A stretch of 64,000 nucleotides of DNA. It comes from Prochlorococcus marinus bv. HNLC2 (GTDB lineage Bacteria; Cyanobacteriota; Cyanobacteriia; PCC-6307; Cyanobiaceae). A model generated the notes under the pieces. That model had not been told where the DNA came from, ran no database searches, and worked only from the letters and a program-made list of their open reading frames with translations. The stretch covers positions 900,332 to 964,331 of the forward strand of contig GL947595.1 of the NCBI GenBank assembly GCA_000218745.1. The letters are read 5' to 3'. The translations under genes and the position numbers were made by a program. Positions 1-1,925 of this stretch are shown here, one piece after another (within the stretch, counting starts at the first letter, position 1; each line of letters starts with the position of its first letter).

Positions 1-202
1 TAAAATTTTAATACAATTTTAAAGATAACTTAAACTTTCTTTTTCTTGAAAAATAATTGTTTACATTAATGGGGTTTTTATTGGTTAACTATTTATCTGA
101 TTGATAAATATAAAAGTATCTCTTGTTAATTGTCACATGTGACAGTTGAATTAGATAAACATTCCACTAAGGCCCTTTAATTATCGGGGCTATTATGTGT
201 AT
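1..202. other. Gene-free AT-rich leader at window edge
   Basis: No open reading frame of useful length or recognisable RNA fold is visible here. The stretch is AT-rich and holds only the palindrome at 131-144 and a possible -10 element (TATTAT, about 191-196) just ahead of the candidate small RNA. The gene to the left, if any, ends outside the window. Confidence 0.5.
131..144. promoter_or_regulatory. Perfect 14-bp palindrome, possible operator
   Basis: TGTCACATGTGACA is identical to its own reverse complement. It sits about 60 bases upstream of the apparent start of the candidate small RNA. A CRP/FNR-family dimer would bind a site of this general shape, but the half-site spacing does not match the NtcA consensus GTA-N8-TAC. 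Its role as an operator is inference from symmetry and position. Confidence 0.35.
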
Positions 203-295
203 GTGTGTAGGAGTTAGTTGTAAATTCAGTGGAAACATGGAAACACTTGAGTTTATAGCTACTAAAACTCATCTGAAAAGATGAGTTTTTTTTTT
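203..295 (+). ncRNA. Candidate Yfr2-family small RNA
   Basis: The stretch carries two copies of GGAAACA (231-237 and 239-245) separated by one T. They lie in the loop of a folded arm: 215-224 pairs with 252-261 over ten positions including two G-U pairs, and AGTG (228-231) can pair with CACT (244-247). A strong intrinsic terminator follows at 264-295. A transcript from about 203 to 293 would be roughly 90 nt. Abundant Yfr2-Yfr5 RNAs of Prochlorococcus are about this size and, as I recall, share GGAAACA repeats in an unpaired loop. The start is guessed from a TATTAT -10 element at about 191-196. No coding alternative is visible. Confidence 0.65.
264..295 (+). terminator. Rho-independent terminator of the small RNA
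   Basis: An 11-bp perfect stem (264-274 with 279-289) closes a GAAA tetraloop and runs straight into a tract of ten T residues (286-295). This is the strongest intrinsic terminator I see in the window. It ends the candidate Yfr2-like RNA. Confidence 0.85.
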
Positions 296-1151: not shown

Positions 1152-1925
1152 ATGAAAACTACAATTCTTTTAATTGAAGATGATCGTGATATGCGCGATT
1201 TAGTTTCGGGACATCTTGAACATTCAGGTTTTGATGTCTTAAAAGCAGATGATGGTATTAAGGGCCAAGCACTTGCCTTACAGTACTCTCCTGACGTTAT
1301 TTTGCTCGATTTGATGCTTCCTAATGTAGATGGATTAACTTTATGTCAAAGATTGAGAAGGGATGAAAGAACATCCGGTATCCCAATACTAATGATTACT
1401 GCTTTAGGTGGTCTGAAAGATAAAGTTACAGGTTTTAATTCAGGTGCAGACGACTATATTACAAAGCCTTTTGATTTAGAAGAATTGCATGTAAGGATAA
1501 AAGCTTTGTTAAGGAGAACTAATAGAGCTGCTTTAAATTCTAGTAATCAACAAGAAATCCTGAATTATGGACCTCTTACACTTGTACCAGAGAGATTCGA
1601 AGTTATTTGGTTTGATTCTCCGGTTCGCTTAACACACTTAGAATTTGAACTAATACATTGCTTGCTGCAAAGACATGGACAGACAGTTTCTCCAGCATTG
1701 ATACTTAAGGAAGTATGGGGTTATGAGCCTGATGATGATATTGAAACAATAAGGGTTCATGTAAGACATTTGAGAACAAAGTTAGAACCTGATCCTCGCA
1801 AGCCAAAATTTATTAAAACTGTATATGGTGCTGGTTATTGTCTTGAACTTCCTAAGGGTGAAGAAGTTGAAATAGAAAAAAAAGAATTCATCGACTCAAG
1901 AGAATCAAATTTAATTAATACTTAA
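1152..1925 (+). CDS. rpaA: OmpR-type response regulator RpaA
   Basis: Cytoplasmic DNA-binding response regulator. In cyanobacteria RpaA is the main output of the KaiC-SasA clock and is phosphorylated by the kinase SasA. The receiver domain (about 1-120) shows the acidic pair E9-D10/D11, the phospho-acceptor D53 in LLDLMLP and K105 in ITKPF. A winged-helix output domain follows (about 135-235), ending in the YGAGYCLEL signature. The RpaA assignment rests on close similarity to RpaA sequences I remember, including the LGGLKDKV segment. The charged tail after residue 235 is short and lineage-specific. It meets holB tail to tail with a 4-bp gap. Confidence 0.93.

Follow-up and report, generated by a model that had tools for sequence, protein, structure and literature searches.

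A Yfr2-family small RNA of Prochlorococcus marinus bv. HNLC2 with a covarying stem, a tandem GGAAACA loop and a candidate GntR-activated promoter

Yfr2 is a well-studied small regulatory RNA (sRNA) that occurs in nearly all cyanobacteria, where it pairs with the sRNAs Yfr1 and Yfr10 and thereby tunes carbon, nitrogen and light responses. An element called CGRE1, which is bound by a GntR regulator, has been reported upstream of some marine picocyanobacterial Yfr2 copies. In Prochlorococcus MED4, pull-down of Yfr2 enriched Yfr1, Yfr10 and 302 mRNAs, and the level of Yfr2 rises in high light and nitrogen starvation; Yfr2 blocked the binding of Yfr1/Yfr10 to the ppa mRNA and lifted the repression that Yfr1 exerts on a porin 5' UTR reporter in E. 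coli; and RNase E cut Yfr2 unless Yfr1 or Yfr10 was bound (PMC6778093). An earlier sequence-only reading of the present DNA remarked that the targets of the family are poorly known; for MED4 this is outdated, given the published assays (pull-down sequencing, reporter and RNase E).

Here, a 64,000-nt stretch of the HNLC2 genome (the window) was analysed, and the locus at 203-295 (+) was compared with these systems. Like the RNA described here, Yfr2-Yfr5 of MED4 have the 5' motif GUGUGUAGGAG, their own terminator, a length of 89-95 nt, and a long stem, bulged at position -4 from the loop, that carries the GGAAACA repeat in its 12-base loop; in addition, MED4 yfr2, yfr4 and yfr5 are preceded by a GTGACA element, as is the present copy. 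On the other hand, the base between the two repeats is A in MED4 and U here, and MED4 has four Yfr2-type copies, whereas a single one, as a lower bound, is found here. Similarly, Yfr2a-c of Synechocystis sp. PCC 6803 share the unpaired 5' motif, the 12-base loop and the bulge at -4 (PMC2662882).

The family assignment rests on the covariance search that the sequence-only reading had proposed. Once run against Rfam release 15, it matched just one family across the window, namely RF01701 (Cyano-1) at 201-265, with 58.9 bits against a cut-off of 41 and with model positions 1-69 of 69 covered; the identification as a Yfr2-type sRNA is thus borne out. The same model recovers all four mapped Yfr2-5 genes of MED4, where the matches begin at 346826 (yfr2), 654509 (yfr3) and 383387 (yfr4) and span 972111-972178 (yfr5). 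Since these matches agree with the published coordinates of MED4 yfr2, yfr3, yfr4 and yfr5 (PMC1242208), Cyano-1 can be equated with the Yfr2 family. RF01701 scores above the cut-off in 131 of the 151 sampled genomes of the genus, with copies reaching 80.9 bits. The score found here is below most of these, so that the present copy is somewhat diverged. The orthologous 201-bp locus is 86% identical in two relatives.

The transcript is predicted to run from 203 to the end of the T run at 295, about 93 nt. In MED4 the RF01701 model begins 2 bases ahead of the mapped start (346826 versus 346828 in yfr2 and 654509 versus 654511 in yfr3), and the start of the HNLC2 transcript is therefore placed at 203, by homology to MED4; the start proposed from the sequence coincides with the one that the RACE-mapped MED4 starts imply. 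A -10 promoter element, TATTAT, occupies 191-196 (+), which corresponds to -12 to -7 from this putative start. Downstream, the fold and a terminator search both identify an intrinsic terminator at 264-295 (+). As had been described, its hairpin has 11 pairs (264-274/279-289) and is joined to ten T residues at 286-295, four of which lie within the stem. It is the one intrinsic terminator in the first 1200 bases, where 0.1 would be expected.

Between the 5' motif and the terminator, the RNA forms a stem-loop at 215-261 (+). The segment 203-305 folds with -32.5 kcal/mol, compared with -17.1 +/- 2.8 for shuffled sequences (z = -5.4; none of 200 shuffles was as stable). The pairing of 215-224 with 252-261 in the sequence-only reading is correct, and its stem length of 10 pairs is not: these pairs are the lower portion of a stem in which 215-231 pairs with 244-261, giving 17 pairs with one bulge at 247. 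An alignment of 23 distinct homologues supports this helix. The stem covariation score is 0.384, compared with 0.126 +/- 0.019 after shuffling (0 of 500 reached it) and at most 0.142 for slid controls; relatedness alone can lift covariation above shuffles, but the slid controls preserve relatedness and still lie far below. In these homologues, 10 of the 15 tested stem pairs have changed on both sides, and 91.3% of cells are paired. Within 215-224/252-261, where the structural proposal could have failed for lack of covariation in related genomes, all eight tested pairs (217-224/252-259) have changed on both sides, and the structure passes this test. RNAalifold, unaided, returns nearly the same helix.

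The stem carries the tandem GGAAACA-U-GGAAACA at 231-245 (+), with two exact copies one base apart (231-237 and 239-245), as the sequence-only reading had it. The repeats are only partly unpaired: the loop comprises the 12 bases 232-243, and the closing GUG/CAC pairs therefore take up the first G of repeat 1 together with the CA that ends repeat 2. The string GGAAACANGGAAACA occurs exactly once in the 64 kb, where 0.57 chance matches would be expected with two mismatches allowed. Both repeats and their closing pairs, the spacer base excepted, are invariant among the 23 homologues; these were selected by a pattern that requires most of the bases of the repeats, the closing pairs and the 5' motif, so that the invariance of these parts is partly built in, while the stem covariation is not. 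A genome scan for the loop complement TTTCCNTGTTTCC yielded one other site, TTTCCTTGTTTCC at L100:1501-1513 (-), which is complementary to the genus-consensus Yfr2 loop and lies towards the 3' end of an ORF for a sodium-dependent transporter; as a loop-pairing target this site was set aside, since it is probably due to chance.

The best-supported interaction platform of the RNA is its 5' end. The unpaired motif GUGUGUAGGAG at 203-213 (+) is complementary, with one bulge, to ACUCCUCACACAC of Yfr1 and Yfr10, and 10 of its 11 positions are invariant in the 23 pattern-selected homologues. Both potential partners are encoded in the genome, Yfr1 as a match to RF01116 (55 bits) and Yfr10 as a match to RF02362 (46.7 bits, cut-off 43), and the genome's only two exact copies of CTCCTCACAC sit in them. 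For the first 14 bases of Yfr2, a duplex with this genome's Yfr1 that leaves one base bulged is predicted at -18.0 kcal/mol, an energy that 2 of 500 shuffled 5' ends attain; the predicted duplex with its Yfr10 has -18.3 kcal/mol. A pairing of Yfr2 with Yfr1 that leaves a single C bulged has been proposed before (PMC2518516). The sequence-only reading had suggested a binding platform in the unpaired repeated motif; this needs revision in so far as the better-supported platform is the unpaired 5' end. Compared with the UGUGU-AGGAG of almost all genus copies, the Rfam consensus of the 5' motif (UGUGUGAGGAG) has one extra G. The Rfam alignment hinted at a strain-specific loss of this G from the Yfr1-pairing motif, and this was rejected because nearly all copies of the genus carry the same short form. 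The arrangement reported for high-light strains, with Yfr10 adjoining Yfr2 upstream, is not seen: the Yfr10 homologue (L071:1492-1577, +) lies far from Yfr2, at about 329 kb, and the neighbourhood of Yfr2 is a gap.

Upstream of the promoter, at 131-144 (+), lies a perfect 14-bp palindrome, TGTCACATGTGACA, whose position is conserved and to which no other site in the genome comes within one mismatch. Of 57 homologous loci, 51 have its right half, GTGACA[AG]TT, at a distance of 64-66 bases ahead of the 5' motif, compared with 0.13% of shuffled upstream sequences. The full palindrome is limited to this copy and a few relatives; elsewhere in the genus, the right half occurs at the fixed distance. 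In MED4, the GntR protein PMM1637 binds CGRE1, a motif confined there to the yfr2 promoters (PMC6778093), and the HNLC2 genome encodes one GntR-family protein, of 333 aa. The palindrome is a probable binding site of the GntR-type activator and a candidate CGRE1, whose description it fits.

The genomic setting places a limit on the copy number. A run of 100 N (genome C1:900232-900331) directly precedes base 1 of the window, so that only 202 bases separate the Yfr2 gene from a scaffold join, and the gene order upstream is consequently not secure. A single RF01701 copy in the genome scores above the cut-off, which is a lower bound: the assembly is about 96% complete, and Yfr2 adjoins the gap at a place where the upstream region of its relatives is missing. 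Two close relatives have a second Yfr2 copy 7.7 kb upstream, in the region that was not recovered at that place in this assembly. Given the gap, the completeness and the second copy of the relatives, a true reduction to a single Yfr2 copy is not accepted. The other RF01701 matches in the genome are weak, at most 20 bits, and were attributed to chance, and the one of 17.7 bits is the reverse strand of Yfr1. On the downstream side, a small conserved protein gene (464-823, -; DUF7326) is convergent with the sRNA and is retained beside it in two close relatives, and 1152-1925 (+) encodes a response regulator with a winged-helix output domain, which presumably resembles RpaA. Outside the window, at L072:1856-2895 (-), hemE is apparently split in two ORFs, which may be an assembly frameshift error.

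GGA-rich sRNAs such as RsmY titrate CsrA/RsmA, and the tandem GGAAACA loop might likewise serve mainly as a platform for protein binding, by which a translational regulator of the CsrA/RsmA type is titrated. GGA and ANGGA repeats are indeed present, repeated GGA motifs lie in loops as in RsmY/RsmZ-type sRNAs, both repeats are invariant in the pattern-selected homologues, and a resemblance to GGA-rich CsrA/RsmA-titrating sRNAs has already been noted (PMC2662882). However, a Pfam search found neither a CsrA nor an Hfq gene in this genome (PF02599, CsrA, gave no match), while control genomes gave matches; as the assembly is about 96% complete, this absence is strong, not absolute. In addition, RsmA/E has not been found in cyanobacteria (PMC2662882), and Yfr2 differs from RsmY/RsmZ in that its best-documented partners are RNAs. 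Such a titration as the main role is therefore quite unlikely. It is possible, if doubtful, that the invariant GGAAACA loop docks a candidate RNA-binding protein while the 5' end serves as a sponge for RNAs, which would give Yfr2 two separable functions.

That the stem-loop is the 5' leader or a 3' element of a neighbouring mRNA rather than a free sRNA is very improbable. Although Yfr2b and Yfr2c of Synechocystis have a start in common with the downstream gene (PMC2662882), Yfr2 here has its own terminator, the next gene (464-823) is on the opposite strand, and in MED4 the homologues exist as free RNAs 89-95 nt long (PMC1242208); the region further upstream is hidden by the scaffold gap. A hairpin due to chance or a decayed pseudogene, as the comparatively low Rfam score might suggest, has next to no likelihood in view of the fold z of -5.4 and the significant Rfam match; the promoter element, 5' motif, loop and terminator are all retained, and the orthologous locus keeps its 86% identity in two relatives.

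Based on the results presented above, the locus is very probably a Yfr2-family sRNA of about 93 nt that would be activated by GntR and whose 5' end would titrate Yfr1 and Yfr10, this joint reading being the best explanation. HNLC2 itself has the sequence, the structure, the partners and a GntR regulator; the mechanism, experimental in MED4 only (PMC6778093), would be carried over by homology, as the partners of the circuit are present in the genome. The cyanobacterial GntR regulator, at the putative site 131-144, would activate the -10 promoter, from which transcription would begin at 203, and the level of Yfr2 would rise under nitrogen starvation and in high light. Bases 203-213, being unpaired, would then pair with the constitutive sRNA Yfr1 and with Yfr10, which would titrate both off their mRNAs and shield Yfr2 from RNase E. 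Further mRNAs and antisense RNAs are probably contacted by the GGAAACA loop and by other parts of the RNA.

In general, this copy is an ordinary member of a well-studied, already known family, and it leaves knowledge of that family unchanged. It provides a clean comparative result, namely covariation of the stem next to a 5' motif and two repeats that do not change, and it extends the documented circuit of GntR, Yfr2, Yfr1 and Yfr10 to one more Prochlorococcus-type lineage.
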